A stretch of DNA of 64,000 nt from positions 32,080,102 to 32,144,101 of the forward strand of contig NC_134850.1 of assembly GCF_965363235.1 (NCBI RefSeq). The letters are read 5' to 3'. The stretch's first letter is position 1. Every line of letters starts with the position of its first letter. Below the pieces are notes generated by a model that made no database searches, was not told the origin of the DNA, and saw only the letters and a list, made by a program, of their open reading frames with translations. The DNA comes from Mytilus galloprovincialis (lineage: Eukaryota; Mollusca; Bivalvia; Mytilida; Mytilidae). Position numbers and translations under genes: made by a program. This document shows positions 3,236 through 64,000 of the stretch, one piece after another.

Positions 3236-4340
3236 AGATTGTGTTAATTATTTAACGGGAAGTAAAATTAAATATTGCACTTAATAAAGCATTGTTTATT
3301 CAACTACAAATATAGACAAAGAAAGATAACTTTAATATTTTTAGAACAGTTGTTAGATTTCTGCGCCTTGCAATAATGTTTAATTAAAAATTATTTAATC
3401 ATTTTGAAACTTGAATTTCTAGGCATATATTTCATTGATGAATGTCTAAAAAGAAAATGAATTGGATGTACATCATATTATGATCAATACACTAAATGAT
3501 GTGTATATCAACGGTGGGATTAAACATTGTAAGCATTGAATACGATACAGTTTTGATCCCGTATTTACATTTTGATAAAAAAAAAATCAATATAGACTAT
3601 TTCTGACCTGATTAAATCAAATATGTAATACAAAATATACCTGCATGTGCTACTTTTTGAGCAAAATGAGGTCGGAATTTTGCATATTTGCTCAAAACTC
3701 GGATTTTTGGCCGTATTTTCACTTTCGAAAGAACGACATAACTTTTTTGTTTTGAAAGATTAACACAAATTGATTTTAGTTAAATAGTTTTAAGTTTCTG
3801 TATTTTATAAGTATTCTAAAAATTTATTCAGAAATAACTCGTATTTATCAAATGTTCATGAATGTAGAAAAAAACATCATGTTTGCTGTATTTTTATCAA
3901 ATTTAAAAAAATGCACTATTTAAGTTTTCATGAAAATTGCCACACATAATCTTCTCGCGTAATCAAACCAAATGACATTTTAAAAAAGAGGGGTCCATGA
4001 TCTCGTTTTCAAGTTAAATAAGTTTGAATGATAAAAATCAGTCGAAAACTGAATCTTTTCCCGATAAGTAATAGTTTGACGTCGCGAAAATAACAATTTA
4101 CGTTAGCGACGTCATTACCTCCCCCGTAACTGTATCGTATGCCCTTAAGATATCAAGTTAGTACAATTTTCACGAAGAAATGTTTTTGGTATGGACTTTA
4201 AAGACCTTACATAAACATCACAGTGATTAATATCTGTACGCATTTAGCTTACTGTTCGGTGTGAGACAAGGCTCCGTGTTGCAGACCATACTTTGACCTA
4301 TAATAGTTTACTTTTACAAATTGTGACCAAAAACAAAATA
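3236..4340. other. Non-coding DNA at the left edge of the left block
   Basis: It aligns with 44206-45375 and is AT-rich. I see no exon. At 4240-4340 there is a short repeat with a 'ggtgtgagacaaggctcc' block that recurs near 12670 and 45275. Confidence 0.5.
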
Positions 4341-4344
4341 GACT

Positions 4345-7562: not shown

Positions 7563-8162
7563 ACAGTAGATACAGTTCCATCTGCTTACATGAAGAAAAA
7601 AAAATTAACGGCAAACCCTCTGTTGTCTTTAAAAAAAGAACCCTGAGATAGTGCTATTAAAAAGGCAAGTTCAGGTGAGTAAGTCACTAAATGTTATTCT
7701 TACACGATAACGCTGTCAAGATAGTAGTTTAGCAAGCTTATTAAACTGAACGTGATAGTGCCATCGAAAAAAAATAATTAAAAAAGTCAGTAGTTATTAC
7801 CTTGTAAACATCAAAGGAATGCTGATCCAATTCCATCATCAGGTGGAGTCCTCCTTCCTTGGCTGTTTCGGCGCTATTCCACAACAACCTCCAGAGGTGC
7901 GCCGGCTCAGGTGATCAATTTGAACCTGGAACTGGATGGCCTACACGGCTCCGATGTCTCAGCTGATGTCATTGCTGTTCTTCTGTAACTGAATGCTGTT
8001 CTGTATATCTATATCTGTCCATTATCTACACAATAACTGTTCATTGTTCTATCACTTTGCACTTTTTCACACTTCGTCTCTTTTCCTCCAAATCCACGGT
8101 GATGCCACTTCTGCTTCTCTACACATTTCTGTAATCAGTTTCTTCCTCTCTGTTCCTACCAC

Positions 8163-8813
8163 TCACAAAGTCCTAAGTGCCCGCCACATTGACTGTCCTG
8201 CAAATCCCCTGCATCCGACTTCTATTGCCATACACCACGTCCTCCATCCCCGCTGTTTGCAATCCTCTACTAGCTGCTGGTATTTTGCCATCTTTCTTTC
8301 ATAAGCTTCTTCTATTCTGTCTTCCCATGTGACTGTTATTTCCAGCAATACCGCCTGCCTAGTTCCCTGTGACCAAATGACTATATCTGGTCTTAGCGAT
8401 GTTGCTGCTATTTCTGCTGGGAAACTCATGCGTTGATGTATGTCTGCTGTCATCTGCCAGTCTGATGCTGTTCCAAGTATCCCTAAACATTCTGCCTGGT
8501 TGTCTTTCTTTTCTCCAGCCCTCACAAAATTTACAAACATGATGTTCGTCTGCATCTTTCTCTTCTTTCTCCTGGTGGTATCCAACTTTGCTGCTATTGT
8601 TTTCAATACACTGTCATGCCTCCATGTATATCTTCCATCTTTTAGTGCGACTGGACATGCTGACAACACATGCTGTATAGATGCTGGTTTGTCTTTGCAT
8701 AAGGTGCATGTTGGGTCTTCTATCAACCCCCAGGTATAGAGGTTTGATGGACTTGGTAAAACATCATACACTGATCTTAGGAGAAAACTCAATCTGTATC
8801 CTCCATACTCCAA
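8163..8813 (-). CDS. LINE C-terminal part: CCHC knuckle and restriction-like endonuclease
   Basis: The 216-residue frame continues the reverse transcriptase polyprotein after a frameshift. It begins just before 'LSFLLRSVYDVLPSP'. A Cys-Cys-His-Cys knuckle follows (C-T-L-C-x7-H-x4-C, about residues 36-52). The nuclease signature comes near residues 142-165: 'RPDIVIW', then 'LLEITVTWEDR', then an 'RKMAKYQQL' helix and 'EVGCRGF'. The PD...E-x-T/K arrangement matches the endonuclease that R2-type LINEs use to nick target DNA for target-primed reverse transcription. The frame ends shortly before the usual end; related residues continue in another frame near 8150-8100, so the C-terminus is also broken. 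It is a transposon relic with no host role indicated. Confidence 0.88.
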   Translation of the reverse strand: MEYGGYRLSFLLRSVYDVLPSPSNLYTWGLIEDPTCTLCKDKPASIQHVLSACPVALKDGRYTWRHDSVLKTIAAKLDTTRRKKRKMQTNIMFVNFVRAGEKKDNQAECLGILGTASDWQMTADIHQRMSFPAEIAATSLRPDIVIWSQGTRQAVLLEITVTWEDRIEEAYERKMAKYQQLVEDCKQRGWRTWCMAIEVGCRGFAGQSMWRALRTL

Positions 8814-8821
8814 ATCTCGCT

Positions 8822-9124
8822 CTAGGTCAAAGTCCTGCTTCTAGCTCCTTGCCAATTCAACCAACTACCCTGTTGTTCCATTTCTACTGCCTTAACATTC
8901 CTACTCTCTTCTTCCATCTGTCGTATTTTCTGTTGCACCAGTTCTCTCCGTCCCTTCTCATTTGCTGTATCCCACCTTGGTTTTGTTGTCATACCAAATC
9001 CCTGTCTACCAACTGCTGTTACACCAACGATGACACTGTGCTTTAGTCTGGTCTCAGCTTCCTTAATTGCTTCCTCTGCTTTCCATTTTCTTCCTGTCCT
9101 GAGTTTTACTTTGGCTCCTCTCAC
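8822..9124 (-). pseudogene. LINE linker between reverse transcriptase and endonuclease
   Basis: It continues in the same frame as the reverse transcriptase after the stop at 9125-9127. It contains a basic 'KVKLRTGRKWKAEEAIKEAE' segment and a charged helical region typical of the connector in this LINE type. It then runs into a stop near 8822, while the following endonuclease is in a different frame, so a frameshift lies near 8830. It has no independent start codon. Confidence 0.8.
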
Positions 9125-10630
9125 TTAAGCATCTTTGCTGTCTCTCAACGTCATAACCTGTCTTGTCTTTGTAACTTTATACTCTTCTGTCAATGCCTTC
9201 ATTGGTAATTGTAGCTTTGTTCCTGTACTGTACAATCCAATGCTGCTGAAACTTCTTGGCACATCCAACCATCTTCTTAGGCATGCACTGATCTTTCTCT
9301 CTAAGGCCTCCACTTTGGACAACGGGAACTCGTAAACTAGTAATAGCCACAGTATTCTTGGTAAGACCCCATGTTGATATATCCAGGCCTTATATCTTCC
9401 TGGGAGCCCACTTTTGTCTATCTTCGTCAGCCATTCTACCAATTGCACTTGAACTTCACCCATGTTTACCATATCTGCTAGTGTTGCATCAAACTTTTTA
9501 CCTAGGCATTTCACTGGTTTCTCTCCAACTGTTGGTATCTTTTCACCTGCTAACTCAAATGTCTCATCTTGCACTTTGCCTTTCCCCACTATCAAACTTC
9601 TAGATTTACTTGATTTGAACTTCATTCTGGCCCACTTAATCATCCTTTCTAATTCCTCTAAAGTCCATCTTCCCTCTATGACTGTTTTTGCTGTCACTGT
9701 CATATCATCCATAAAAGCTCTTACTGGTGGTTGCCTGACCCCTGATGACAATAATGGTCCTCTACTTGGTTTTTCTACTGATTTTACAATTAAGTTCATT
9801 GCTGCTGCAAACAGGACTACTGATACTGTACACCCCGTTAATATTCCAACTTCAAGTCTCTGCCAAGCTGTGGTGAAGTCTCCAGCTGTGAACCTCATTT
9901 CAATCTTGTCAAAATACTCTCGCAGCATAGTTCTGATAGTTGGTGGAACATGATACCTCTCCAATGTCAGGTCTACTAGTTTGTGAGGTATGGACCAATA
10001 AGCATTAGCCAGATCTAGCCAAAACACTGCTAAGTCACTTTTCTTCTCCTTTGCTTCTCTTAAAATCTGTATCATAACGCTGGTGTGTTCGATGCAACCA
10101 GATACTTCAGGCATGCCTCCTTTCTGGACTGCGATGTCTATATATTCGTTGCCAAACAGGTACCTCGTCGTTCTCCTTGCTAAAACTGTCAGGAATATCT
10201 TCCCCTCAATGTTCGATAGGGAGATGGTTCTTAACTGTTCAACTTTCCTTGAGTTCTCTTCTTTTGGTATAAAACATCTTTCTGCCTTGTACCAAGACTC
10301 TGTCATCTTTCTCCTTCTCCAAATTACTTTTAATAGCTTCCACAACCTTCTGATCAGTCTGGGACAGTTCTTATATACCCTATATGAAATACCATTTGGT
10401 CCTGGAGCTGACCCTGCTCTTGCCTTTCGCACTACGTCCTGCACTTCTTGGAACTTCAGGTCTGACTCATCAAACTGTTCTTTTGGCTCCTCTGGTGTTA
10501 ACAATTTCTCACATTCTTCCAGGTCTTCTCCTCGTCTCTCATCGCTGTGGGTCTTACTGAGATGTTCTTCCACTTCTTCCCTCGAGTTTTCCAGTTTACC
10601 AGATCCTCTCGCTCCAAATAATCGCTTCAT
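9125..10630 (-). CDS. LINE reverse transcriptase
   Basis: A 501-residue frame. The RT signature appears in order: 'ARAGSAPGPNGISYRVYKNC' (fingers), 'WYKAERCFIPKEENSRKVEQ' and 'LRTISLSNIEGKIF' (RT 2/2a), 'FWLDLANAYWSIPH' (catalytic Asp, motif A), 'GILTGCTVSVVLFAAAMN' (motif B), 'VRAFMDDMTVTA' (motif C, F-M-D-D in place of the usual A/Y-x-D-D), then a thumb with 'KSGLPGRYKAWIYQHGVLPR'. The function is target-primed reverse transcription of the element's own RNA. It starts at an ATG, but related residues probably continue upstream, so that Met may be internal. It ends at an in-frame stop after 'TLRDSKDA', where intact relatives would read on into the linker and endonuclease. Confidence 0.93.
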   Translation of the reverse strand: MKRLFGARGSGKLENSREEVEEHLSKTHSDERRGEDLEECEKLLTPEEPKEQFDESDLKFQEVQDVVRKARAGSAPGPNGISYRVYKNCPRLIRRLWKLLKVIWRRRKMTESWYKAERCFIPKEENSRKVEQLRTISLSNIEGKIFLTVLARRTTRYLFGNEYIDIAVQKGGMPEVSGCIEHTSVMIQILREAKEKKSDLAVFWLDLANAYWSIPHKLVDLTLERYHVPPTIRTMLREYFDKIEMRFTAGDFTTAWQRLEVGILTGCTVSVVLFAAAMNLIVKSVEKPSRGPLLSSGVRQPPVRAFMDDMTVTAKTVIEGRWTLEELERMIKWARMKFKSSKSRSLIVGKGKVQDETFELAGEKIPTVGEKPVKCLGKKFDATLADMVNMGEVQVQLVEWLTKIDKSGLPGRYKAWIYQHGVLPRILWLLLVYEFPLSKVEALERKISACLRRWLDVPRSFSSIGLYSTGTKLQLPMKALTEEYKVTKTRQVMTLRDSKDA

Positions 10631-11460
10631 ATACTGAAATGGGTTTGCTGTAAATGTTGCTCTCTCCTTTGCCTTTTTCTTTCTATCTCTTCTATGAGTT
10701 TCTACTCTTGTAAGTGTCTTAAGTTTCTCCCTAGTTTCCTTTCTTAACTGCTGTAATGGTTACCTTTCATTCTCATTGGCGACTTTGTATCTCTTCTTTA
10801 ACCTTCTCAAGTCTCCTCTCAATTCCTTGATCTTCTTCTGTCTCCGGTTACTATGGCCTTGTTTTGTTGGTTGTTTCCCTTGTGGTACCACTCCAAATCT
10901 GTCCTTTCCTACGCTGTAAATAATGGACGTCATTGCTGTTATCTTTCTGTCTACACTGCCTGCTAATGTTGCCTCTAAGATGTTTTCCAAATCTTCGTCA
11001 AGAGCTTTCCAAGCTGCTTTGTCTGCATTCGTTGGCCATTTGATCTTCTCTTTGCATGGCTCATTCTCTTCTCTACTGGTTGTTGGCTCTATCCTGTCTC
11101 TCTACGGACTGTTGTTTCTATCCCGTCTTCTCTATGGACTGTTGGTTCTATCCTCTCTATCTCTTCTGCCTCGTCAAGTTGTTCTACCTCTGTAGGCTGT
11201 TCCTCGTGCTCATCCTCACCCTGGGTCACAGGGAGGCTATCATCACTGTGGTTTGTTTCCTGGATGGTCTCCTCCTCCGTCTGACCAGATGTCTCTGTGC
11301 GTTGATTGCCAGAATGGGGTTGCACACATTTCATTCTGCTTTGATGGATCTTCAAACCTCTAGAATTCTTACAGACTTTACCACAAAAAACATTTACATC
11401 CGTTGTTCTGGTTCGTTGTCCTTGTCGGTTCCATAGTCGTTTCCTGATCCTGTCCTATGG
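10631..11460 (-). pseudogene. LINE N-terminal region with C2HC zinc finger
   Basis: Three interrupted minus-strand stretches are visible. At 11326-11385 is a Cys-x3-Cys...His-x5-Cys finger ('CGKVCKNSRGLKIHQSRMKC'), the DNA-binding finger usual at the start of R2-type proteins. At 11089-11325 is an acidic, E/T-rich linker. At 10760-10990 is a basic helical stretch ending 'LRGDLRRLKKRYKV'. Stops and frame changes separate them, so the N-terminus is decayed. Confidence 0.75.
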
Positions 11461-11622
11461 GCTGTTCATCCTCCCTCGCTCTCGCACAGCCCCGAGGGTG
11501 TCTTAGTATATATCATTCCATAGCGTGTAAAATGGGTTCCCCTTCACAGGAGATGCACTTTGACTTGCCAAGCCTAATGCCCCGGTTACCAGTCTCTCCT
11601 GGCTGTTATATTTTCTTCTTAT

Positions 11623-14388: not shown

Positions 14389-17300
14389 CTATCTTTCTAA
14401 CGCATTCCATTCACTTATCAGCAATGTTACTATCTCGTTAACCTGTAATAAACAAATCATTTTATCACACATTCTCTAAAATGAAAATGTTTAGCCATGG
14501 CGTTGTCAACATAAAATAGAAGATATGGTATGAATGCCAATGAGACAACTCTCCGCAGGAGACCAATTGACACAGTTTTTTATAGGTCACCGTACGGCCT
14601 TCAACAATGAGCAGAGCTCATATCGTATAGTCAGCTATAAAAAGGCACGAAATGAAAAATGTAAAACAATTCAAACGAATAACTAGCGGCCTTTTTGTAC
14701 ATACAAAAAATAAACGATAAACAAATAACATACACATCAACAGTTTAATTTCGACTTATGCAGTTTAAATGTCCCTCTGGTATCTTTCGCACATCCTTAA
14801 TAACGTTAGAGCAAAAACGTTTTCAATGAAGGTAATTACGAATCTTACACATAAAACTTTTACATCTAACCTTAAAATTGCAAAAATAAAAGAAATATAA
14901 AGTTAAAATATATTTGTGATTGGTTGAGATGATATATATAGTTAAAGAAAAAAACTATTGATAGATAACGAACATATACTCTCTCCTAATTATATGAATT
15001 TGTCTTCCAGCTGTTTTGATTCGTGCATCATTAATGAGTCTTCTGTAGATGTATTGCTCGCTTGCATACAAATTATTGTAAGCATTGAATCGTTGAAGCA
15101 TTTTAAAAACTGGACTGATGCCTTTGCGGGTGCTTGATACGTCACTGAGCTTAAAGGTATAACACCATCTCAGTATGTGTTGAATTGAAATATTAATCAT
15201 AATATGTACATTCTCTATACATTTTCTGTATATAAAACAGGTAAATTTTTCGACAACTAAGGTCATTCTAACCCAAAATATTGGCTTAGCAGTTTTTCGC
15301 AAATTTTTTCGATTTTTGTTTTGTTTTTTAAACTCTATAACTTCTGTCTTTTTTCGCACGCCACTGATGAGTCGTATGTCGACTAAACGCATTTCGGCAG
15401 TACTCAATTATCCACATGAGATCAAACTAATCACCAAACGTTGAATTAATCAGTGAAATGGCAACAAAGCACGATGTTAAAGGATAAAGCTAGCTTCATT
15501 TCATGATAGATAAATCTGTTATCCAACCGTGCGTGTGCTTTGTCCTTTGGTCGAAATCACATCAAAATTTCTAATCTCTGTACAAGGCATGGTAAAAATA
15601 TTCAGCACAAACATTAACTACTTCTAATTTGATTACTTTCGACTTACGCATTTGAATATGTCTGATGCAATCTTTACTCGATGGTTAAATGTGAAATCTT
15701 CCATTAAATCCATTGTTCGTCTAATGTCTTCTGGTAAAAGAATAAAGCCGTGCTGCTTCAGCTCTTTTGAGAGTTCTTCAATCAACCAAACAGTATCCTG
15801 AAATGTTTTTTGAAAAAAAGCTAGAACACAACAAAACAGTTTGTTTTAAGTACAAGCTGTGTCAACTGAAGTTCGTCCCTGCTTTAACCTAAAGACAGTT
15901 CAATGTATATAAACTCATCATAGATACTAAGATTAAATTTTGTATTTACGCCAGACGCGCGTTTCGTCTACAACAGTTTTATTACGTTTGATTCTTTAAT
16001 ATGCTTCATCTATCAATCGCATGTACATATTTGTTAGACTGTGTATCAAATTGCCAGCTTTTCCGTTTCGCTCTGTAGGCTAAGAATACGTCTAACCAAG
16101 TATTGGTTTTTCAGAAGGTTTGATGTGCAAATATCTAAGACCGTATATTAGTTTTAGTACGAAATCTTTTTTAATAGAACAAATCAAAATAAACACTTGC
16201 ATAAGTTTTGTTTCTTATTTGTAAGTTTTGGGTATATGAAAATTTTCTTTCTTTTTTCCAATCTTGTCAATATAGCACAGGTATCAAGCCAGAGGATAAT
16301 ACTCTTCAGTCTATCTTTTTGTCGTTTTGATAATTTCCCGTTTGACATATATTTTAGGATGTCTGCTTGTCATGTTTTGGAATTTCTGTCAGATTTTCGG
16401 AATCCTCTGGTTTTATCCATTTGAATGCCTTCAAAAAATGTCCCCATGAACCCCAATTTTCTTTTTATAAATCTTTTACATGTATAATTATAAGTCATTT
16501 GTAAAGGTCTATCAAATTCTATTTTTTTAATTGTATTTGAGAACTTTAACTGGTCAATGATAAAGCTATGAAAAATCAAGAGAGACCATTTTCCCTCCAA
16601 ATATCCAATGGCTAATATCACGAAAAGAAGCACATTGATCCCTATATTTTTTTTTATTTTTTTTTATTTCTAAATTTATTCCCTATCAATACATACTAGT
16701 TTTATGAAAAGTTATTTATGTTGAAACTGAGCAACGAACATCCTTAATGAAGGATTTTAGCCGAAATTGAATTATTATACACCATGAGGTTGATGCCAGC
16801 AGAGTGAGTTTACTTTGAAACCACTATCTTCGGGTTTATTTATGCTTTGTTTGATACATTGTTAGTCGGCATTGTGTATTTGCAACTGTATTTTTCAATC
16901 AGTTTTTCTTTTAATTGATTAATCCTTTTTCATATTTTTCGCTGTTAATGATGGAGATTAATTTGTTTATCTAGGACACTATTTAGTTCTCATTTATATT
17001 GACTTTATGTAATTTGTTGGGGGGAATTTCCAGTTTGCTTTTCTGTCGCATGGACTTAATGAAAAATATGCTTTAGTTCATATCCTATATGACAGTTGGG
17101 TGTAAGCATGATTAATGTACCTCTGGGCAAAATTAAATGATTTCAGCAAACTTAAGTTTACGAATATTTAAGTCCTAAACTCGAGACTAGCAAAACATGT
17201 TGTAGTTACATTAAATCAACAAAATATCTAATCAACTGAAAAATAATTAGAACAAATTCCATCACTTACTAATTAAAAGCAATATTTTGTATTTCGTGAT

Positions 17301-40056: not shown

Positions 40057-40064
40057 TTCACCAC

Positions 40065-42045: not shown

Positions 42046-42049
42046 GTTA

Positions 42050-42190
42050 TCAAAGGTACCAGGCTTATAATTTGATACGCCAGAGGCGCGTTTCGTCTAC
42101 ATAAGACTCACCAGTGACGCTCAGATCAAAATAATTAGAAACACAAAACAAGTACAAAGTTGAAGAGCATTGATGACCCAATTTCGTCTA
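42050..42190 (+). repeat. CAGACGCGCG-family repeat, diverged
   Basis: 'aggtaccaggcttataattt', 'cgcgtttcgtctacataaga', 'gtacaaagttgaagagcatt' in the family order. Confidence 0.8.
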
Positions 42191-42299
42191 TTTTTCAGAG
42201 TGAGCAACACTTACGATACAAGACTAACATATAAGGTTCATGCGTGAAGTAAGGACTGTTCTAGGTCATGGGATAAAACATGTATAAATAAAGCACAAA

Positions 42300-42900: not shown

Positions 42901-42989
42901 TGTCCAGTAAGTCAGTAATGTTTTTAATATTTTAATTGTAATATTTATTATCGCTATTTTGTGAAATTTAACTTTGAAGTATTGTAAAT

Positions 42990-46050: not shown

Positions 46051-46051
46051 A

Positions 46052-46686: not shown

Positions 46687-46689
46687 AAA

Positions 46690-47377
46690 AGTACCTTGAT
46701 TAAGAAATGTATACGACGAATCTGTCATCCATTAAAGACTAAAATAAGGCGACTGCTTTTAATTTAACTACTGGGACATATTTAACCAAAGTTGGCCGCA
46801 ATCATTATGAGGATATTTACACAGATTACTACTTATAATGATTTAAACCTTGTTTTACATGATTTTCAAAAACACAGTTAATACGCAGGCTCCTGTTGTT
46901 TTGCAATGCCTCCATTAAACATTTTGCAGGGTTTGAATATAGTGTATTTTTTAATTAATCGTGTAGTAGAAGGATGAAATACATTTATAGGTGGAGTTGA
47001 TTGTTATTTTTTGACTGATGAGTTCAAATGTTTCTCTTTGGTGTCTTCCGACTAAAGCTCTTAACTGAATTAACTAATTGACAATAAATGCTGGACTCAT
47101 CTTCTTCGTGTACCTGATATACATATTAGTAGTTAAATGTAAAAAGTGATTTGGGGAGTCAAAGTCTGATGACAAAGCAAAACAATAATACTAAGATCAA
47201 ATGTAGTACATGGAGTACTTTATACCAGCCAGCAATTATTTGTGGATTCATATTACTATCGTGCGTTTTCACATTGTATGTTCAAATTAGCTTATCATAA
47301 TTTTAATTCTTCTCGTGTAATAGCTATCTTTTATTATTTGACAGTTTACAATAAGAAAGGAGTGTGTCGTGTTGATA
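46690..47377. other. Non-coding DNA, right block
   Basis: It aligns with 5605-6315. No exon is supported. Confidence 0.5.
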
Positions 47378-47600
47378 AATAAACTCATCATAGATACCAG
47401 GACTAATTTTTTTATATACGCTAGACGCGCGTTTCGTTTACAAAAGACTCATCAGTGACGCTCCAATCCAATAAAGTTAAAAAGGCCAAATAAAGTACGA
47501 AGTTAGAGAGCATTGAGGACCAAAATTCCTAAAAATTTTGCCAAATCCAGCTAAGGTAATCTATGCCTGAGGTAGAAAAGCCTTAGTATTTCAAAAATTG
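47378..47600 (+). mobile_element. CAGACGCGCG-family element, right copy only, TTGAT target duplication
   Basis: It has the full order of blocks seen at 655-895. It is flanked by 'gttgat' on the left and 'attgatgta' on the right, while the left duplicate has a single 'gttgatgta' at 6310. That gives a clean 5-bp target duplication (TTGAT) and an empty site. Confidence 0.88.
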
Positions 47601-49740: not shown

Positions 49741-52400
49741 ACTATAGTATAACCCCTTTGTTTTAGATATCTAAATTTGTTGAACGATATGCTACGATGA
49801 TTTACTATCCAACAAACGTCGACGTCATTTTGGCGTTCTAGATATATTTAGCGGTAAGAGTAGCTTTCTGTTTAGTTAATTATTAATAATGCCATCTCAA
49901 GAGGTAGCAACGACAACTATGTCAATCTTGGAACGGCCATATACTCCATATCATACTTCTAGTTGCAAAGTGAAAGCAAAACGGTCAACAGATCTGTTAC
50001 CGTACGAAAGGTAGATGAAATCCGCTATATCCTAGGATAGTGGGACAATAAAACTGAAGACGAACGTTTTCCTTATCATTGTAATTTGTCGTTCATTCAC
50101 ACACATCGTCCGTATTCGTTCAGTAGTTGAAATCTACGTAGCCCTACGATGCAGCTAAGATATTTAACGCACCCCTGGTGATACGCCCTTTAAAAAACGT
50201 TCTGTCGCATAAACTGTATTTTCACTCTAGTTGTTCACGGATCGTTGTCAATATAATTAAATTTGGTGCGATTGTCTATAAAACCAGGTTCAATCCACCA
50301 TTTTCTTCATTATAAATGCCTGTCAGGAATATGACAGTTGTTGTTCATTCGTTTGATGTGATTTATTCTTTGATTTTGCCATTTGATAAAGGACTTTCCG
50401 TTTTGAATTTTCCTCGGTGTTTTATTTTTTTTTATTTTACTCTTTGTGTCTGTGTCTGTATCAGGCTATCGAGACCATTCTGGTGAATAAATACAAAATT
50501 ATCTACCTTCACCTTTCAACAAGATGTAGGGTTAACCAAAGTCGATTCGTTTGGGAAGCAAAATGAAATCGAAACATAATGTTAAAACTTGCAATCAGAA
50601 AGTCTATCTCGAGTTTGACAATAGTCCCCAATGTCGTTTTATAGTGATAAGACTTCATAGAGGCATTTTTAATAGACTTAGTCATTACTAAAATAGTATA
50701 ATAAATGGCCATGAATTAAGCTTTGTGCCATAAAAAGAAGAGTAACTACTTTCCCTTCAGGAGCACACCGGTCATAGGTTTTGCGCAATCTTTGTAAAAC
50801 AATTTTCAGTTTTTATATTGAGATTTGTTAACTGCTTTCATCTGAATGTTTTAATCGTATGTATTTGTTTAAATCTAAATGTAGTATACTAAACATTAAG
50901 TGTGGTGTACGTAAATTATATGTAGCAATCCCATAAAACTTAATAAAATCAGAAGAGATCAAAATATGGTCTGACACAATGTGTTTTATCATACAAGTAA
51001 GAGGTTTCACTAGCTATAAAACCAGATTGAATTCACCCTTTTTTACATAAAAAATGCCTGTAGTAAGTCCTGAATATGACAGTTGTTATCCATTCCTTTA
51101 AATTTGATGTGTTTAAGCTTTTGATTTTGCCATATCCGATTTAAATTTTCCTCAGAGTTCAGTACTTTTGCGATTATACTTTTTAAATCAGAATACTAAT
51201 GACCTGTCCCTCGTCGTTGCTAGTCTTCTTTGCAGGATCTTCTTCATTTTAAATTTATCATCGCAAAAAACAAAAAAGGTAGCAAAGTGGAAATTAGAAT
51301 TCATACGTAGAAGAAAGACCATGTGCAATATAAAAGATACCAATGCATAACTGTAGTGAACCTCAGAATCAAATGTTTTACGTGACATTTCCATAAACGT
51401 TGTCCCAACGTCTCAGTGTTTTAATAATTCCCGGTGAATTGTACTTATTTTTAATCTCCTTTTGTAATTTCAATTCTAATTGTGATTCTTCTAAAGGGGT
51501 TGTACATATGGTTTTTTATCAACTGTGTAAAATGGGGTAGAGAATATTAAAGAGGAAATCAAAATTCATTAGTCAAAGAGAAACAGACAACACCATGGAA
51601 AAAAAGAGAAAAAAAAACGAGAAAAAACGACACATTATTTGTCAACACATCACTACGCTGAAAACTAAAGACTGATCTCGAGCTATACAGGCCTCACCAA
51701 ATACCAGGGTTAAATTCAGGTGACCCGGAAGCTTGATCAGATACAACTCCTACTCATTTACAATACTTTGATGAGGTATGAAGTGATTTAACGTCACCCA
51801 CTACCAAAAATGGTCATTAATGTCCAAATGACCAAACATGTAAAACATATCTTAATTTTATAACCACTGCCAATTAAATTGACCGAATGTGAAATTTTGA
51901 CTTTTTATGACAAAGGTTAGACAAAAGTTAAAACAACACAATCATCGATACATTTAAAATCACAAAATATAACATCAAAAACAAAAGCAAGCGCATTGCG
52001 AACCACTTTAAATAAAAGCTAGTGGAGATCGCAGATGCATCGGAAGTGTAATCAGGTTCTGCTCCACATATGCATAAAACAGCCTTCAAGACTGTTGATA
52101 ACTCTCGTGCAATGACATCAGCATTAAAGAATAGGATGGGATTGTAGTAATGTTAATTGCAAAATTTACCAGGATATCTGTGATACAGATTTTTTATAAG
52201 GATTTTACAATCTTATGATGGCGTCCGTATCAATTTGAGGATTTTTTTCTTCGAAAAAATGGCTTTGAAATAGTTTCGAAGATAACGAATGGCCAAGGAT
52301 TGTTGGAGATAACATAATAGGTTTAATGTAGATATTTAGCTATATATTAGAATTATAACATCTTTGCCGTTCATTCATACTGTTGCCTCTTTGAATATGT
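49741..52400. other. Non-coding DNA 3' of KY-like copy 2
   Basis: It aligns with 12786-14388. It contains a right-specific insertion of about 935 bp (51050-51985) and another of about 100 bp (about 49878-49980). A minus-strand ATTAAA at 52322-52327 follows the stop of copy 2 by about 75 nt. Confidence 0.5.
51050..51985. mobile_element. ~935-bp insertion, right copy only
   Basis: The left copy runs straight from 'cagattgaattc' to the 'agcaagagcaacgcgaacca' region (13955-13985). The insert starts with a repeat also found at 13225 and 50315 ('tgaatatgacagttgttatc'). Its middle has short frames on both strands (60-68 codons) without recognisable similarity. It ends in A-rich DNA. It may be several elements. 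Confidence 0.6.
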
Positions 52401-55400
52401 CTATCTTTCTAACGCATTCCATTCACTTATCAGCAATGTTACTATCTCGTTAACCTGTAATAAACAAAACATTTTATCACACATTCTCTAAAATGAAAAT
52501 GTTTAGCGTTGTCAATATAAAATAAAAAGATATGGTATGATTGCCAATGAGACAACTCTCCACAAGAGACCAATTGACACAGAATTTATATGTCACCGTA
52601 CGGCCTTCAACAATGAGCAGAGCTCATACCGTATAGTCAGCTATAAAAAGGCACGAACTGAAAAATGTAAAACAATTCAAACGAATAACTAGCGGCCTTT
52701 TTGTATGTACAAAAAAAAAACGATAAACAAATAACATACACATCAACAGTTTAATTTCGACTTATGCAGTTTAAATGTCCCTCTGGTATCTTTCGCACAT
52801 CCTTAATAACGTTACATCAAACACGTTTTCAATGAAGACAATTACAAATCTTACACATAAAACTTCTTACATCTAACCTTAAAATTGCAAAAGATAAAGA
52901 AATATGACTCTTATGAACAGATAATAGTATATATTAACATTGTTATCTGTTTTTATCAATGCACAACACTAATGCAGCTATAATTAATACTTGTACGTTA
53001 TAAAGTTAAGTATATTAGAATTTGTGATTGGTTTAGATGATATGACCGTATATAGTTAAAGAAAAAAAACTATTGATAGATAACGAGCATATACTCTCTC
53101 CTAATCATATGAATTTGTCTTCCAGCTGTTTTGATTCGTGCATCATTAATGAGTCTTCTGTAGATGTATTGCTCGCTTGCATACAAAATATTGTAAGCAG
53201 TGAATCGTTGAAGCATTTTTTTAAAACTGGACTGATGCCTTTGCGGGTGCTCGATACGTCACTGAGCTTAAAGGTATAACAGCACCTCAGTCTGTGTTGA
53301 ATTGAAATATTAATCATAATATGTACATTCTCTATAAATTTACCGTTTATAAAACAGGTAAATTGTTCGACAACTAAGGTCATTCTAACCCAAAATATTG
53401 GCTTAGCCGTTTTTCGCACATTTTTTTTTCGATTTTTTTTAATTTTTAAACTTTATAACTTCTGTCTTTTTTTGCACGCCACTGATGAGTCGTATGTCGA
53501 CTAAACGCATTTCAGCAGTACTCAATTATCCACATGAGATCAAACTAATCACCAAACTTTGAATTAATCAGTGAAATGGCAACGAAACACGATGTTAAAG
53601 GATTAAGCTAGCTTCATTTCATGATAGATAAATCTGTTATCCAACAGTGCATGCGCTTTGTCCTTTGGTCGAAATCACATCACAATTTCTAATCTCTGTA
53701 CAAGGCATGGTAAAACTATTCAGCACAAACATTAACTACTTCCAATTTGATTACTTTCGACTTACGCATTTGAATATGTCTGATGCAATCTTTACTCGAT
53801 GGTTAAATGTGAAATCTACCATTAAATCCATTGTCCGTCTAATGTCTTCTGGTAAAATAATAAATCCGTGCTGCTTCAGCTCTTTTGAGAGTTCTTCAAT
53901 CAACCAAACAGTATCCTGAAATGTTTTTTGAAAAAAAACTAGACCACAAGAAAACAGTTTGTTTTAAGTACAAGCTGTGTCAACTGAAGTTCGTCCCTGC
54001 TTTAACACTAAGACAGTTTAATGTATATAAACTCATCTTAGATACTTAGGATTAAATGTTGTATTTACGCCAGACGCGCGTTTCGTCTACAAAAGTATTA
54101 TTACGTTTGATTCTTTAATATGTTTCATCTATCAATCGCATGTACATATTTGTAAGACTGTGTATCAAACTGCCAGCTTTTCCTTTTCGCTCTGTAGGCT
54201 AAGAATACTTCTTTCCAAGTATCAGTTTTGTCAGCAGGTTTGATGAGCAAATATCAAAGACCGTATATTAGTTTTAGTACGAAATCTTTTTTAATCGAAC
54301 AAATCAAAATAAACAGTTGCATAAGTTTCGTTTCTTATTTGTAAGTTTTGGGTATATGAAAATTTTCTTTCTTTTTTCCAATCTTGTCAATATAGCACAG
54401 GTATCAAGCAAGAGGATAATACTCTTCAGTCTATCTTTTTGTCGTTTTAATAATTTCCCGTTTGACATATTTTAGGATGTCTGCTTGTCATGTTTTGGAA
54501 TTTCTGTCAGATTTTCGGAATCCTCTGGTTTTATCCATTTGAATGCCTTCAAAAAATGTCCCCATGAACCCCAATTTTCTTTTTATAAATCTTTTACATG
54601 TATGATTATAAGTCATTTGTAAAAGTTTATAAAATTCTATTTTTTTAGTAGTATTTGAGAACTTTAACTGGTCAATGATAAAGCTATGAAAAATCAAGAG
54701 AGAACATTTTCCCGCCAAAATTCCAATGGCTAATATCACGAAAAGAAGCACATTGACCCCTATATTTTTTTTGATTTTTTTATTCCTCAATTTATTCCCT
54801 ATCAATACATACTAGTTTTATGAAAAGTTATTTATGTTGAAACTGAGCAACGAACATCCTTAATAAAGGATTTTAACCGAAATTGAATTATTATACACCA
54901 TGAGGTTGATGCCAGCAGAGTGAGTTTACTTTAAAACCATTATATTCTGGTTTATTTATGCTTTGTTTGATACATTGTTAGTCGGCATTGTGTATTTGCA
55001 ACTGTATTTTTCAATCAGTTTTTCTTTTAATTGATTAATCCTTTTTCATATTTTTCGCTGTTAATGATGGAGATTAATTTGTTTATCTAGGACACTATTT
55101 AGTTCTCATTTATATTGACTTTATGTAATTTTTTGGGGGGAATTTCCATGTTGCTTTTCTGTCGCATGAACTTAAATCAAAAATCTTCTTTAGTTCATAT
55201 CTTATATGACAGTTGGGTGTAAGAATGATTAATGTATCTCTGGGCAAAATGAAATGATTTAAGCAAATTTAAGTTAACGAATATTTAAGTCCTAAACTCG
55301 ATACTAGCAAAACATGTTGTAGTTACATTAAATCAACAAAATATCTAATCAACTGAAAAATAATTAGAACAAATTCCTTCACTTACTAATTAAAAGCAAT

Positions 55401-58400
55401 ATTTTGTATTTCGTGGATTGTGTTTTGTTGATAAATAAAAAAAAAACACATGTATACATACCTTTTCCTTCTCATCTGACTTGCTGAACAATGTGAGCAG
55501 CAGATTTACTGTTTGATTAACTGCACTAGTTTTTTCGACTGTTACTTTGTTTGATGATTGTGGTCTGCTCACAGTTGCCCATGTTTCTGAGCTGTCACCA
55601 TGCTGTAGATAATAGAGCAGTCTTTCGAGAATATTTATAAGTCTATGTAGTCTTGCTTCATATTCCGACTGTCTTACTATGTTTGAATGATGCAGCCGTG
55701 GATCGACAGCCACTTTTCGACCTCTGTGTAGTTTTTCTAAATAAATATACTATTGAATTAGCAGAGGAAGTTAGAGTAAATTCTTTTTAAAACTGGATTG
55801 ATATGTGTCCTCTTTTATGTCAGTGCTGAATTTTTGGTTTAGGGTTATTCGACATTATGTATTATTCAATATACATAGATTAGTTTCAAGCACCTCAGAC
55901 TAGAAAGAAATATAATTCTAAATGTTCACAAAAGGCATCAAATTAATTTTGGTACCTTTATTTTGGATAGCATTGCATTGCAGTTACCGTGATAAAAAGG
56001 AAGAAACTTAAAAACGGGAAGATAACAAAAATACCTCAATCAAAGGAAAATTCAAATCAGAGGTACCTTATCAAATAACAAATTCAAAGTTATCCTTGGT
56101 TGACCGACTGAATGATTATTCTAAAAGCAATAAGATTTGTTGCTTTATATTGCTATTAAGAATGTGTTTGTGTAGCTTATTTGAAGTACACAAATCAAAT
56201 TTAAAAAAACTTCCATTACTTTGTTTAATTTTGAGAATTGCAGCTTTTCCTCTAGTTCTTTGAACATCTAGGTCGACCTCTGTTATTTTCTTGCTAGCAC
56301 AGTCCTGAATACGGAATAATATTTCGTTGACGTTCTTGCCTTCTATTGAAGCATTTAACATCTTACGAGCAGCTCTGATACCACAGTTCTACAATTATAA
56401 AAAAAAAACATATATTTATATTAGATCAAAGCATATATTGAATTCATTGTATCGATATTACCTGAATCTGTGATTTGAATGTTGAGTTCAATGTATTCCT
56501 TTTTATCCTACTTTAACCCTTGGCAAGAATTGAATGTTAAATTTCTTTATTTGGTCGACGGTTTCCAGAGAAAAATAGAGGAAGTAGTAAAAGCAATATC
56601 CGAAGCAAAATTGCGAAACAAGAAACAATAGAGAACACACTTCAACAAACATAATGTGTTGTATGCAGTACGGTCCAAAGAAATGTATTTATTCAAGAAA
56701 AAAAAATGATTTTCATGGTTTTGTGTTAGAATTTAATGCAAAAGGCAATTACATTTTATGCTCTGAAAGTATCTTCATCAGTTAAGAGTATATATACCTC
56801 GTGCGATTCTTGCAAAGGAAGTTCGTCGTAGATCAACAGATAGTAACAGGCTGTTTTTGTCTCAGATTCTAAATATCCATTTGTTTCAGTGCAAATCTGC
56901 AAAATGTATTGTCCTGGTGATTCTGGTGGGAAAACGTCAATCACTACTTCTTTGTATGTTCTTCTTCGTATTAAACAACACTGGGTTAGTTCATTAATCA
57001 CTTCGTAATCCTCCGAATGGTTTGATGTTGCTTCTGAAGACAACACATTTGCTTTTATCGAAATCAGTTCAGACATTCTATTATCTATCCGAAATTTTAT
57101 CTGGAAATGTCTGCTCAAATCGATGTGCAGTATTCCAGATCTGTATGACGGATGAGATAGCCCAGAGAAGTACATGAAAGGACCAGGCCCCAGCCCAATA
57201 GCACCAGTGTTAATAGGAAGTGGCATGGGTTCAGGATGACACACCTTGCAATCGATATCAACTGCGAGTATTTTTAGAAGAGGTTCACCATATTTACCGG
57301 CATAAAATACAAGTTTGTAGGTACCAGTATAAGGAAACAGTATATCACATGTCCAGGTTGATTCGTTTCTGATAAGATAAACAAACTTTTGTAAGAAGTT
57401 ATCATTTTCAATTTTTATATCTAAGTCTGTCTCAACTAATTCTAAATTATACCAAAGTACCAATTCATATACGGATTCGTATGTTCCCATGAAACCAAGT
57501 GTAATTCTACCATCGTCACAGGTTATTCGGTGGCTCAAATGAGTAGTTAGTTTTAGACCCGTTCTCCACCAAGGAGGAAAGAACATGTCTTGGTCTAAGA
57601 ATTGTTCTTTTGTTATTGGTTCAAGAAGTAACTGCCATTTTTCATCATCAGGAAAGCATTCGTGAATAAAATGTTCTGGATTTGACAATACATAATGATC
57701 TAAGAATGTTTTCTTTAGAATCTCATTCGTATCTGAATGGACTTCAGTATAAGATTTGACCATGTCTTTTGATATATTCCCTGATAGTGTTCGACATATG
57801 CGATATGGATGTACAAGCTGCCACGTGTCTTTAATAAAAACTGCTACCCATGCGCATGGAAGTAATGTGCTTCCATCATCACTCCTGCAGACACCACTTA
57901 TCTTGTCACATTTAATACCAGTAGCCCTGAAAAATGATATGGACTAAGCAAGGAAGACGAAATGTTTTTCTTTTATTTTTTTATTTACAGCTTGAAATTA
58001 CGATTAATATTATTAATTTCATTCACACAATGATGACGTAATTACACGCCTTACATACCGAAAAAAAACTTACAAGAGATTTAAGATCATTTAAGAATAA
58101 ATGTAAAAAATAATTGAATCTTTTTTTCTCTTCTCTACCAATGAAATAGGTAACATTGCTTGATTAATATTATAGGGAATGTATTTCACAGAAAAACCGA
58201 AATAACTGAAGCATTAAAAAAGAAACCGTAACGATATATACCAATTGAATATTCAATCAACTGACATATACGTCGAAGATCAGCTAACAAGGCAATCACA
58301 AAAATCGAACAAAAAGACAAATAAAACAGTCAACAAAAATACTGGTCATAAGATGTTAAAGCATAGTTAATGGTAACTTATCTTTCACCAGAAAAAAAAA

Positions 58401-61400
58401 TCAACTAAAAACCTAAAAAGGAAACCATTTAAAACATATAAATGTGTATGTGAGACAGGTCCGATACTTCAGTATCAGAAACTTTCAGAAATGTTTACCA
58501 GATGAAACGCATCAAAGAATTATTTACGTTTGTTGGGTTAAATACCTGACTTTAATATTTTGCCAGTAAAATTTGAATACACAAAATATGCACATGATGA
58601 TCTTTTGTGGATTTTTACAAATATTCAGATAAAAAAGGATAAAATCCTGAATGTTTTTTAAATCGGTCAGATCATACCAACAGGGTATTAGGATTTGTAC
58701 TGTGTTGTTTGAATGTTTTTGTTCGAATTTTATTAGCACCGAATTTCAATTTTGATATAAAAAAAACTACTACCGTTGTTTTAATTGTCATATATATCTT
58801 AAACCATTCGCATCAAGAAAAATCTATTAAATAATAAATATGTTATTTTAACATACCAGCATAATAAAATAAATATTGTGGTAAATGTAGTTTTATGTTG
58901 CCGTAACAGTCTAATTAATACATCCGGGGTTCTGCCTTGTCCTTCACCAGATCTGTATGACAGAGGAGAAAATGGAGGCTCTAAATCCTCAACTGTATCA
59001 TGAGCCAATGCATCTGACAACCAAATAATAAAGGACCTGATCAGCAGAATGTCACTGTCAGGGTGGTTGAGTATCGGTTCTTTTAGATAATCTCTCAGCT
59101 CTCTAAAACTGCTCAGTGCTACCCGTGGTACCTGAAATTATTTTAAATCAAAATCGCCAATATCTTGTTCTGCACCCTTGTCAATCTTACCTACAAGCTG
59201 AGATATGAGATAATATTGCAATTCTTTGTATATTTAAATTGACAAAATTATCTTTGTAGATTGCACAACGTTTTCTGCACGTATGAAAGCATTATTACAT
59301 TCTACATGTGCGTGTCCCAATTTATGTACGTATATTTCAATGGTGTTTTTTGTCGCAGTGTATCACATTTGCTTTTGCTTATTCTTTTTGTACATACATA
59401 AGACAGTTAGGTTCCTCGTTTGAATTATTTTACATTTTCATTTTCTATGCGGCATGGGATTTTCTCATTGTTGAAGGCCTTACTGGGTCATCTATATAAT
59501 TTGATCTCTGGTGGATAGTTGTCATAATTTCAGGATATCATACTATTGTACTTTTTTATTATCATATCACGCATAAAAAGCAATGTATGCAAATTTAAAT
59601 CTACTGAATAGTTCACATTTCTGAAAGATACAATGGTGTGTTAGATCGTTGCTGATGTACTGTTAATAATCATTCACTTTCATTCATCTATCGAATGACA
59701 CAAAAACAAAATAATGATGCATGAATTATGTGAACAGTTTATGTTACCTTCGATGCGTTCTCTTCGATAAGGTCTATCAAATCAGTGTTCAGACCGTTAT
59801 GGTTGGCTGCAATGACGTACTGTTCACATAGAGCATTCCGGTACAAGACTCTTTTAACCACATTTCGCTTTGCTTGTCTTCGTTGAACTTGGTTTGTTGT
59901 TATGGGATTTGGTTCAAAGGAAAAATCTTGAGATGGAAGGATTTTGACCTAGGTTGAATAAAAAAATATGGTGTTAAAAGTTTTTGTACATTTCTATTTT
60001 TATTTTCGTTTTATGATTCGTTGATATTCACCAACATAAGAAATAACTTTCCAAGTATGCACATCCAATGTACATGTTGAAATGCATTTAAACTAGACAA
60101 AGTGATGCCCCTGCACTCCATGCTGAAGTAAAATATGTTAATGAATCATAACAAAGTGAATTCGTCGGGGTTAAACATTTTTTGTGAGATTTCAACCTTC
60201 CCCTTATACCTCAAACCAATGTAGAATAAAGAAAACACACAAGCAATACGCACAGTAAAACTAAGTTTGAAAGAAGTTTGAGTCCGATGTCAAAAACACT
60301 TTCAATATAAAAAAAGAAGATGTGGTATAATTGCCAATGACACAACTCTCCACAAGAGATCAGAATGACACAGAAATTAACAACTATAGGTCACCACAAG
60401 GCCTTCAACAATGAACAAAGCCATACAGCCCATACCCATTAAAGACGGTTCATCAGTATCATTTTGAAGACATTTGTAGTGTTGTAATTTTGTAAAAATT
60501 TAATCATTTCGCAGTTCGATATTTCCGAAAACAGCGCCAAAGTTAGAGATACAGATGACTGACTAATCAAGTTAGACGTGGAATTGGTGACAGGCCTTCC
60601 TTTTATGTATAAGCAAGTTTTAAAGAAATTAGTATTCATATGTCTGCCTTATATTTATAAGACTTACATGTAGTAGCATGAATGTTATAAACCTCACACA
60701 GAATATAGTGATTGATTGATTGTTGGTATCCTAACTCCAATGAAAAATATTCCAAACATGTTTAGGACGATAACAAATTAAAAACTAGATCTATCATTGC
60801 AAGTAATAGCAGGTGGCACCCAGCCCACATTGCAGTTTAACTGTCACCACTTTAAAATCAGTCAAAGCACATAAATAAATAACAAAGCATGGTATAAATG
60901 TTGAGGATATTTGAACTGCAACATTAAAATGAGGGTATATCAACTTTTGCTGTTTCATAGGCCACCGTTTGGCCCCGGAAAGAGTTGTTTTATTGTTTCT
61001 AAAAGTGTGTATATCGTGGCACTATTTCTATACGAGGAAACAACAAGAAGTCCATAGTTCTATTCTTAAGTCGCCCTTTGGTACGATAATGGCAGTGTTT
61101 GCCTTCTTATTTTGTAAGCACGATAATGTTCCATTTTTATATCATTTCAAAATAGCAACAAAGGGCAATTATTGAAGAATTGAATGGTTCTTATTGTAAA
61201 TTCATTGGAGTGAAAAAGCGTTGACCGAAGTACATTTTGTATGAAGTGCGGAAGCGCTTCATTCTAACAATGAGCGCAAGGTCAACGCTTTACCTGTGAT
61301 CAATAGAACATGATTTATTTTAGCCAATCAAAATAACGTTTTCATAATGAAACATACATCCAATGTTAGGTTGAAGACATCGATGTACGTATTTAAAAAT

Positions 61401-63258
61401 GAGGATACATGAGAGAGAGAGAACATAACATTTTTTTTCTTCTGATAGTGTCAAGTACGTCGTGTGATAATTCATGACACAACAAGCTTTCATTTTGCAA
61501 AGAAAGCGTCCAAAATATCAGTTTGTCCATTTTTGTTAAAAAAAAAACATTTGTTTCAGAACTCATACGCAAAGGTGCTAAAGGTGTGTGCCATTACTTA
61601 TTATACATATATCACTACATTTAGATATATCGAGATTATAAACTGTAGCAATATCCAACTTGTTTTTCTGACACCATTTTGATTGTCGTTTTTATCCTAA
61701 TCTGATCTGATTGCTCTCATCTTATTTAGTTTGACGTGTTTATCAATTTCTCTACTCTAAATCGCGTCAATTTCTGTCTTATATGTTATAAAAAAATGAA
61801 AACAACACGTTTAATAATTTCTTGCGTCCGAAGCGCTTTTCTGGATTTCCTTCATCAGGAACGTTTAAGTCAAACATTTGAAATCCGAAGATGTTTAAGT
61901 ACCGAAAATCGTTGAAGAGCTATATGTTAAAAATACCCTATGGAAACAGCAAAATTCATCTAAAGCCAACTTTAATCTTGTAAAATAGACATAATCTGAT
62001 GTTCACTCTTCGTTAGTAGAGAGGTATTGAGTTAAATCTTTAAATTATAAATTAAAGTACGTTTTGTTTGTTGTTGTTGCCATGCCTTTTAGCCACACTA
62101 TTTATTTATTTCCTCATTTGTTATTCAAGCATTAATAATAAATTGATTTAAGTTCAAAACAACACTTAACGTTATCGACACCTCCTAGTACAAAGTTTTA
62201 ATACGTTTTATTTCAGTGGAGATTTAGGTTAAAACTGTAAATGATTGTGTGGGATATATTTTAAATTACTAAACTGAAATGGTCTGTTTTTATTCTAACG
62301 GCGCAAAATATACTCTACTCAGTGGCGGATGATTGTGTATGTGAGGGGGGGTCTGGGGTTTGGAACCCCCTTTTTTGGACGATCAATGCATTTGAATTGG
62401 GACATGTAGTTGGAACCCTCCACACACCCTTTTTTTCATGGGTTAGGACCCCCATTTTTTTTTAAATGGCTTCATCCGCCCCTGCTAATAATGGACTAGA
62501 AGTTAATACCACTTCTATCAATTTAAACTAAATTCATGTAGAACTGTAACCAATATTTTTGTTTTTTTTTAATCCAAGATTAAAATTAAATTACACTTCA
62601 ATTCTTATTTTCAATAACTTATCCAATTAGGTTATCATTTATATCTTCATTTTTCGACCAAGGTTATAGTATTTCAGGATTGGAAAGAAAATAAAAGATT
62701 TACAAAAAAAAAAAACTGACATCAAAAGTGCAAGTTCCCAGTCAGAAGCCTGAAGTGTAGTGGTTATCAACGGTTCTTGTCTGTTATATTAGTTTTTTTG
62801 TTAATTGTTTTCTTATAAATTAGACCGTTAGTTTTCTGAATTGAACTCTTTCACGTTTGCATGTCGGGCCTTTTTAAAGTCAATTATAAGGTTTGGGTTT
62901 TTCGCATTGTTGAAGGCCCTATGTTTGCCTTTGATTGATTACATATACTTTATTTCAACTTTGGTGGATATTTCTCTCATTGGCAATCATATCACATCTC
63001 TATATTTTAAGACTACAAATATAAAACGTGTAACGATTAAACTTTTCGTTTTAAGTAAAAACTACATTTAGATTTAATTGAAGAGAGGCGTGTTTTCTAT
63101 ATATTTTAGTATATGTCAGTAAATTGTGTAAAACAAACCTTGTCATTGAGGAAACTTTCCGATTCTAACTCAGCTTCATTGCTTGTTGTCACGGCTTTGT
63201 TGAAGCTCTTTTCACCTCGAAAAACACGCGATTCATTCTTGACTGGATTATTACCCAT
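52401..63258 (-). CDS. KY/hillarin-like transglutaminase-fold protein, copy 2 (8 exons)
   Basis: Exons, 5' to 3' on the minus strand: 63258-63139, 59948-59748, 59131-58857, 57926-56798, 56388-56220 (long form), 55736-55462, 53915-53766, 52454-52401. Borders and phases match copy 1; the product is about 790 aa. Amino-acid differences from copy 1, counted by eye: exon 1, about 11 of 39 plus one extra codon; exon 2, one of 67; exon 3, two of 92; exon 4, three of 376; exon 5, two; exon 6, five of 91; exon 7, two of 50; exon 8, none. Domain layout and the loss of the catalytic triad are the same, so it is a recent paralogue and both copies look intact. A role in cytoskeletal anchoring is inferred from the family only. 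Intron 1 is ~3.2 kb against 2.8 kb in copy 1, because of element insertions. Confidence 0.86.
52515..52705 (-). repeat. Short interspersed repeat in last intron (shared)
   Basis: Counterpart of 14515-14695; it predates the duplication. Confidence 0.7.
52906..53000. other. ~95-bp stretch present only in the right copy
   Basis: The left copy reads 'aaagaaatataaagtt' without it (14890). The stretch has an inner inverted pair 'gaacagata...ttatctgttt'. It is either an insertion here or a deletion on the left. Confidence 0.5.
54020..54095 (+). repeat. CAGACGCGCG-family fragment (shared)
   Basis: Counterpart of 15905-15980. Confidence 0.75.
55957..55962 (-). terminator. Candidate poly(A) signal for short isoform, copy 2
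   Basis: Minus-strand AATAAA about 153 nt after the stop at 56116; matches 17837-17842. Confidence 0.4.
56116..56388 (-). CDS. Alternative terminal exon of KY-like copy 2 (read-through form)
   Basis: The same frame and stop as 17998-18270, ending '...QQILLLLE'; it would give a ~665-aa protein. The donor-like GTAAGG of copy 1 reads ATAAAG here, while the AAA|GTAATG donor at 56219 is kept. Confidence 0.55.
   Translation of the reverse strand, partial: NCGIRAARKMLNASIEGKNVNEILFRIQDCASKKITEVDLDVQRTRGKAAILKIKQSNGSFFKFDLCTSNKLHKHILNSNIKQQILLLLE
60150..60435. repeat. Composite dispersed repeats in intron 1 (shared)
   Basis: Counterpart of 22000-22320, with a few small indels. Confidence 0.65.
61208..61292. 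repeat. Small inverted-repeat element (hairpin), right copy
   Basis: 'aaaagcgttgacc' pairs with 'ggtcaacgcttt'. The ~48 bp that follow it in the left copy (23098-23146) are missing here. Confidence 0.7.
61787..62055. mobile_element. ~265-bp element, right copy only, TTATAAA target duplication
   Basis: It carries 'cttgcgtccgaagcgctttt' and 'ctggatttccttcatcagg'. 'ttataaa' lies at both edges, and the left copy has one 'ttattaa' at the matching point (23643). Non-coding; family name unknown to me. Confidence 0.75.
62322..62485. mobile_element. Dispersed repeat with G/C-rich ends, right copy only
   Basis: 'gaggggggtctgg', 'cgatcaatgcatttgaatt' and 'cttcatccgcccctg': the inverted relative of 40065-40195. 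The left copy has no counterpart near 23890. Confidence 0.75.
62740..63000 (+). repeat. Short interspersed element in intron 1 (shared)
   Basis: Counterpart of 24170-24450. Confidence 0.65.
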
Positions 63259-64000
63259 CGAGGTCTTTTTCTACTTCAAAATACTCTCGATTTTAGTCAA
63301 AAGATGAAAAATAAACATAAATCACGTCATAATCTTTAAAATGTCAATCATTGAAAATGTTTTGATTGTACCTGTCTTGAAGGTATAATTTTATTTAATA
63401 CGAAGGTAAACAGTGATTTAAACAGCATTCCCATTATTAGAACAACAAAACGGATGTATTAAATAACATCATATTAACTTAAATACGTAAATTGAGAATA
63501 CTTTATTTGTGACATTAAACAATAAGTTGTCTGTGCCTGTTACAGAGAAGTTCAATATAAATTAATATACACTAGACCTATATATACAAGAATGGCAAAC
63601 TGGACCATTTTTAACTAAGATGATATATAATTGCCAAATATGTCAAGTTTAAAATATTAACAGGGTTACTGTTACTTATATATTTAAATACAACACATAA
63701 CTAATAAAATTGTATTTAAATTGATATCGGGGATCGATATTTGTTTGTAAACAAGTTTTTTCAATTACATGTAATCCTAATGTAGAATGTAAACTGAATA
63801 TTTTATAATTTACGTGAAAGATAACAGGTCATTAACTTTTTAAAGTAGAATAATGGTAGTGAAACGGCCAATATAATACTTCCATGGTTGAATGTATTGG
63901 TAATTGTAACAGAATTTAACAAGCACTGTAAGAGGAATGAAAAGTTTCAAGATCATCAACTTCTCTATAACTTTGTAATCAATCACAAGAGTTGAGGCTG
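63259..64000. other. 5' flank of KY-like copy 2 and window end
   Basis: It aligns with 24707-25410 up to about 63960. The promoter is not identifiable. Confidence 0.4.

Follow-up and report, generated by a model that had tools for sequence, protein, structure and literature searches.

A tandemly duplicated KY-GPCR unit with unevenly diverged copies in the genome of Mytilus galloprovincialis

KY-like genes, GPCR gene and repeated unit

We analyzed a 64,000-nucleotide stretch of the Mytilus galloprovincialis genome (hereafter, the window; contig NC_134850.1, here C13, positions 32080102-32144101), which carries two genes related to the kyphoscoliosis peptidase (KY) family and, between them, a G protein-coupled receptor (GPCR) gene. 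The window was compared with itself after addition of 90 kb of left and 110 kb of right flanking sequence (264 kb in all), and the searched genome comprised 1.385 Gb in 331 contigs. Window coordinates that are negative or exceed 64000 denote flanking sequence on the same contig. Self-BLAST and chaining showed that 3244-25405 (block A) and 44206-63962 (block B) are collinear direct copies, linked by 13 collinear plus-strand matches running from 3244-4356/44206-45372 through 24089-25405/62644-63962. A previous reading based on the sequence only had described two blocks of 22.2 and 19.8 kb in the same orientation and 18.8 kb apart, and the block ends obtained here agreed with it to within approximately 10 bases. 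A central core (14896-22898 in A, 52999-61036 in B) was 96.3% identical over 8.06 kb, and the other 12 chained matches, outside the core, were 82-94% identical. Segmental duplications are collinear copies longer than 1 kb with identity above 90%, values that the core exceeds. As a control, the window was compared with its sequence in reverse, and a single 29-bp match reached E <= 1e-3. Direct local copies of at least 500 bp lying more than 5 kb apart made up 66% of the window; across the 264 kb the figure was 44%.

Each block contains one KY-like gene on the minus strand, an orientation that the sequence-only reading had left unmentioned. Gene A (15648-24706) has seven coding exons with an open frame and splice sites (24706-24590, 21809-21609, 20992-20718, 19802-18674, 18270-18102, 17616-17342, and 15797-15648), and gene B (53766-63258) has seven matching exons, the first at 63258-63139. 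The frames were open in both genes, and conservation extended to the splice sites of exons 2-7 and to exon 1 and its donor. A GTAAGT donor closes exon 7, which makes an eighth exon likely. The final exon was not placed among 13 candidate acceptors conserved in A and B; those at 14634 (15 amino acids) and 14442 (17 amino acids, 14442-14389) have tails identical in the two genes, and we lean towards 14442-14389. Accordingly, of the complete eight-exon gene that had been proposed for each block, seven exons stood and the eighth is a candidate. A dispersed 395-bp repeat lies in a KY intron at 16353-16747 and is common to A and B; among the matches listed, the A copy was 89-91% identical to 35 other places and the B copy was 91-94% identical to its own.

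The encoded proteins carry the Ig-like KY domain (PF23265, Ig-like_KY) well above the Pfam cut-off of 27 bits, with 87.6 bits (E 9.8e-25) for A and 87.1 bits (E 1.5e-24) for B. The Pfam search of the 733-residue protein from exons 2-7 gave no other match up to E 5, and the transglutaminase core was undetected in it, although weak matches may be lost to HMMER filters. No NCBIfam family matched the GPCR or the frame of KY exon 4, and a PDB sequence search started from the KY protein returned just two hits, both weak (E 0.32 and 1.4). The segments RQHKTTFTT, LLPCAWV, and LVHPYR stand where we presume the Cys, His, and Asp motifs of the family to be, and the residues look replaced when judged by eye against those motifs. 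The window genes thus share the Ig-like KY domain with the KY family and differ from it in the undetected transglutaminase core and the apparently replaced positions; because the domain was found and the core was not, the products likely act as non-catalytic KY relatives. Exons 2-7 of A and B differ at 16 synonymous and 16 nonsynonymous sites, giving a synonymous divergence (dS) of 0.034 and a ratio of nonsynonymous to synonymous divergence (dN/dS) of 0.28. Given this ratio and the intact frames and splice sites, both genes probably make protein.

The GPCR gene of the window (GPCR1; 38400-40040, plus strand) is a single open frame of 546 amino acids encoding a rhodopsin-family receptor (Pfam 7tm_1, E 5.1e-8), the N-terminal part of which consists of 22-residue repeats encoded by 66-bp repeats at 38513-38911. 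It lies in a spacer block (38258-42960, plus strand) that recurs at approximately 79364-84062, where it contains a second gene (GPCR2), and again at 105347-110046. The offset from GPCR1 to GPCR2 was 41.1 kb, in the same register as the KY blocks, for which chaining gave an A-to-B offset of 40.4-41.3 kb to the left and 37.0-38.6 kb to the right of a long interspersed nuclear element (LINE) in A. This 3.8-kb LINE (RVT_1; 7796-11605, minus strand) is absent from B, in agreement with the lineage-specific insertions of the sequence-only reading. Once it is allowed for, the adjacent units keep one register of approximately 41 kb on both sides. Since the GPCR block recurs in the register of the KY blocks, the repeated unit is KY gene, spacer, and GPCR, approximately 40 kb long. 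It replaces the 20-kb duplication that had been described, and the GPCR that had been called unrelated to the duplicated blocks belongs to the unit.

Unit 1 (gene A, spacer, and GPCR1) spans 3244-42960 and is collinear with 44206-84062. The left part of unit 2, with gene B, fills 44206-64000, and the unit continues beyond the window to approximately 84062 with GPCR2. The junction between them, from the end of unit 1 at 42960 to the start of unit 2 at 44206, is a 1.2-kb tandem array of a 186-bp repeat (42992-44203, plus strand; 6.5 copies by TRF). With the 186-bp unit as query and a cut-off of E <= 1e-8, the 264 kb contained no match other than 42992-44209.

Uneven divergence between the two units

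Divergence between A and B was unequal along the blocks. Mismatch was 15.3, 10.7, and 6.9% in three slices to the left of the core, 4.5, 3.8, 4.2, 1.3, 1.4, and 3.1% in six slices through the core (1.3-1.4% at 18.0-22.0 kb), and 4.2, 25.0, and 14.1% in three slices to the right. A tract of low divergence therefore lies within diverged homologous flanks, as is looked for in conversion or exchange. The coding sequence followed the same division, with 18 of 117 aligned sites differing in exon 1, outside the core, against 32 of 2199 in exons 2-7. Moreover, the dS of 0.034 between the KY genes contrasted with 0.126 between GPCR1 and GPCR2, genes of the same two units. Taken together, the divergence of core, flanks, exon 1, and GPCR is best explained by one duplication and later replacement in the KY core.

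The KY value is approximately one-quarter of the GPCR value, which is also what would be expected if the KY and GPCR genes had been duplicated at separate times and the KY core last, free of any conversion. On either side of the core, however, the flanks are collinear in register and mostly far more diverged, and a later event limited to the core would itself be conversion or exchange; we therefore regard separate duplications as improbable. An account in which selection on regulatory sequence, rather than exchange, kept the core alike can appeal to the dN/dS of 0.28 and to the ability of introns to hold enhancers. Nevertheless, the low divergence spans the noncoding sequence of the core, at 63 of 3110 sites (2.0%) in 18.0-22.9 kb and 121 of 2668 (4.5%) in 14.9-18.0 kb, and includes the dispersed 395-bp intron repeat (3.8%), while the coding exon 1 was not conserved. 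Such selection is extremely unlikely to account for the core.

Further copies in the cluster

Searches of the genome placed the window within a cluster of approximately 1.35 Mb on one contig, with four near-identical KY genes, four GPCR genes, and a second type of KY gene (KYp) in three copies; the direct segmental duplication described by the sequence-only reading is thus part of a larger whole. The KY exon-4 copies, all on C13, lie at 32098736 (A), 32136860 (B, 99%), 32980024 (A', 100% by rounding), and 33268864 (C, 98%), and the next best of the 32 matches in the genome was 43% identical. KYp was found at 32213682, with an open frame in the exon searched, and at 32284104 and 33415449, where the 3' part contains stops in each copy; a relative on C14 was 84% identical. 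Long-query genome searches omitted even the window itself, so that absences in them carry no conclusion.

Close GPCR copies lie at 32118480, 32159586-32161562, 32185569-32187545, and 33397148 (GPCR'), and dS between GPCR1 and GPCR' was 0.024. The number of 22-residue repeats varies among them, so that the window and C-side copies have 546 amino acids and the two copies to the right have 652. A 39-bp unit array (40196-41417, 31.6 copies) adjoins the window GPCR, and arrays likewise stand beside the two rightward copies. Those two copies are each carried by one of two 8785-bp direct copies (77953-86735 and 103936-112720) that are 99.92% identical. A 17.2-kb segment separates them; inverted repeats of 271 bp, 85.6% identical, form its two ends (86733-87001 and 103665-103932) and meet the edges of the 8785-bp duplication within 4 bases. 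Reversed-ends transposition in maize reportedly yields tandem direct duplications. The candidate reading of the 17.2-kb segment as one transposon was weakened by the finding that the start of the left inverted repeat has at least 39 other genomic places (40 candidates scored), and no target-site duplication was seen by eye at the segment; its ends may instead be a short repeat present twice in facing orientation.

The copy A' was 99.88% identical to the window over 10 kb, and its KY gene differs from that of A at one nonsynonymous site; young extra copies are thus present in the cluster. Of 18 samples of 200 bases taken around A', 11 matched window 599-29479 at 97-100%, one matched 34331-34686 in two pieces at 95-98%, two matched elsewhere in the 264 kb (93 and 83%), and four had no match at E <= 1e-8. 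The LINE is shared by A and A' only and is absent from B and C. At least 14 other places of at least 3.5 kb matched it at 95-98%, and the LINE family is therefore probably young. A separate direct duplication (-16934 to 657; register 10.1-10.6 kb, 89-96%) adjoins the left side of the window. An element of approximately 725 bp at 31006-31731 is absent from the C side and has at least 24 other places at 96-98%.

C, at C13:33254264-33276473, is a mosaic, judged by identity values alone, in that its nearest relative switches along its length. Its inner left flank was 91-94% identical to B over 46686-53000, unbroken across a stretch of approximately 0.9 kb that A is without, against 79-92% to A. 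Its right flank was 97% identical to A over 22900-26199 against 82-86% to B, and its core was 93-97% identical to A and 94-96% to B. The match to the C side breaks off at window position 26199 and picks up again only after 110 kb of C-side sequence.

These copies bear on the concern, raised by the sequence-only reading, that A and B are two alleles of a single locus misjoined in tandem by the assembler. Two published mussel genome studies give heterozygosity of 1.73% (PMC7653742) and, by k-mers, 3.27% (PMC11183127), values close to the 1.3-4.5% divergence per slice of the core, and both describe large insertion/deletion differences as widespread between mussel haplotypes (PMC7653742, PMC11183127). 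Uniform divergence at the level of heterozygosity would nevertheless be expected of a haplotypic duplication, whereas A-B mismatch ranged from 1.3 to 25% across the 12 slices. Five of the six flank slices were 7-25% diverged and the sixth 4.2%, mostly beyond the published heterozygosity, and the GPCR dS of 0.126 also argues against alleles, as does the 264 kb read, in which there was no N. Furthermore, A, B, and C are three lineages, more than a single diploid locus can hold as alleles, provided that the sample comes from one animal; and even with A' and C assigned to the other haplotype, two KY genes remain on each. We therefore consider misjoined alleles very unlikely.

In a different arrangement, A and B would be true tandem paralogs, and A', C, GPCR', and the third KYp (32.98-33.42 Mb) would be a second haplotype left in the contig. 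The A-C right flank at 97% and the GPCR1-GPCR' dS of 0.024 fall in the allelic range, and each side has two KY genes plus GPCR and KYp relatives. Against this, the difference of 0.1% between A and A' over 10 kb is far under the published heterozygosity; a sample 24 kb to the left of the A-A' stretch matched best at 93%, elsewhere in the array, and another matched nothing; the listed order of copies differs (A-GPCR-B versus A'-C-GPCR'); and the right side of C is 82-86% identical to B, hence C is no plain allele of B. A leftover haplotype is a serious possibility, at rather less than even chances, and the haploid KY copy number is accordingly two or four. With 32.98-33.42 Mb taken as such a haplotype, there would still be two KY genes per haplotype, and the duplication of the KY gene is therefore safe, unless the sample comprises more than one animal.

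Origin of the cluster and biological meaning

We consider it probable that the window holds 1.5 units of an old direct tandem KY-GPCR duplication of approximately 40 kb, in a recombining cluster, with later exchange in the KY core. Unequal crossing over would have made the tandem KY-GPCR units. Once the units existed, the KY genes would have exchanged sequence by unequal crossing over or gene conversion, which would have preserved the likeness of exons 2-7 and their intervening introns as the GPCR genes, exon 1, and the outer flanks diverged. Exchange in the KY core may also have built C, with its B-like inner left and A-like right side. In a later event, copying of a segment of approximately 30 kb around A, LINE included, would have produced A' at a distance of 0.88 Mb. 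Such structures ordinarily arise through non-allelic recombination between tandem copies, and nothing found here requires a new mechanism.

Several observations weigh against this account. The slice just to the right of the core (22899-23649) is 4.2% diverged, as low as the core, which leaves the core without a sharp edge there, and part of the sequence in the 25.0% slice (23650-24088, 396 sites) aligns poorly. Inside the core, a permutation test of the longest identical run was not significant (p 0.28). The case for exchange rests on density differences, and the difference between the left and right parts of the core (chi-square p 1.9e-12) refers to a cut chosen after the profile had been viewed. 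The middle of the spacer (25406-34900) aligned to unit 2 in scraps only, and the A' sample at window 3606-3804 was 97% identical, below the remainder. For C, the outer left is A-like again (97% over window 1-1418), and at least two switches are therefore needed; it is 91% identical to A and 85% to B over 2417-4149, and at 45383-46056 the B-C identity is 88% where that of A-C is 91%. C is known from search coordinates and whole-percent identities.

Bivalve gene families are reportedly known to expand in tandem, C1q-domain genes being one example. The window resembles that expansion in its direct tandem copies, intact genes, and clustered locus, and differs in that its unit joins two unrelated families, KY-like and GPCR. 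Interlocus gene conversion between duplicated blocks is likewise said to be known in Drosophila, with which the window has in common a mosaic copy and a highly identical, gene-centered tract set in duplicated flanks that are more diverged. The tracts of the window differ in being drawn from one assembly. Large insertion/deletion differences between copies are also shared with the presence/absence variation and hemizygosity of M. galloprovincialis (PMC7653742); that variation is between individuals, whereas the differences in the window are between copies within one assembly.

Tandem expansion and conversion are both known processes, and the notable detail of this locus is a homogenized gene body with a free first exon. 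A bolder reading, which we hold to be unlikely, is that the cluster acts as a shuffling device, with exchange confined to KY exons 2-7 and a shared body combined with differing first exons, 3' flanks, and GPCR genes; were it true, each chromosome would carry a different set of mosaic KY-GPCR units. A spacer that seems unrelated may, as here, belong to the repeated unit, and copies of very different ages may stand side by side. In a host that is probably highly heterozygous, the locus allows measurement of how a gene family grows, how exchange homogenizes it, and how it may vary between individuals.

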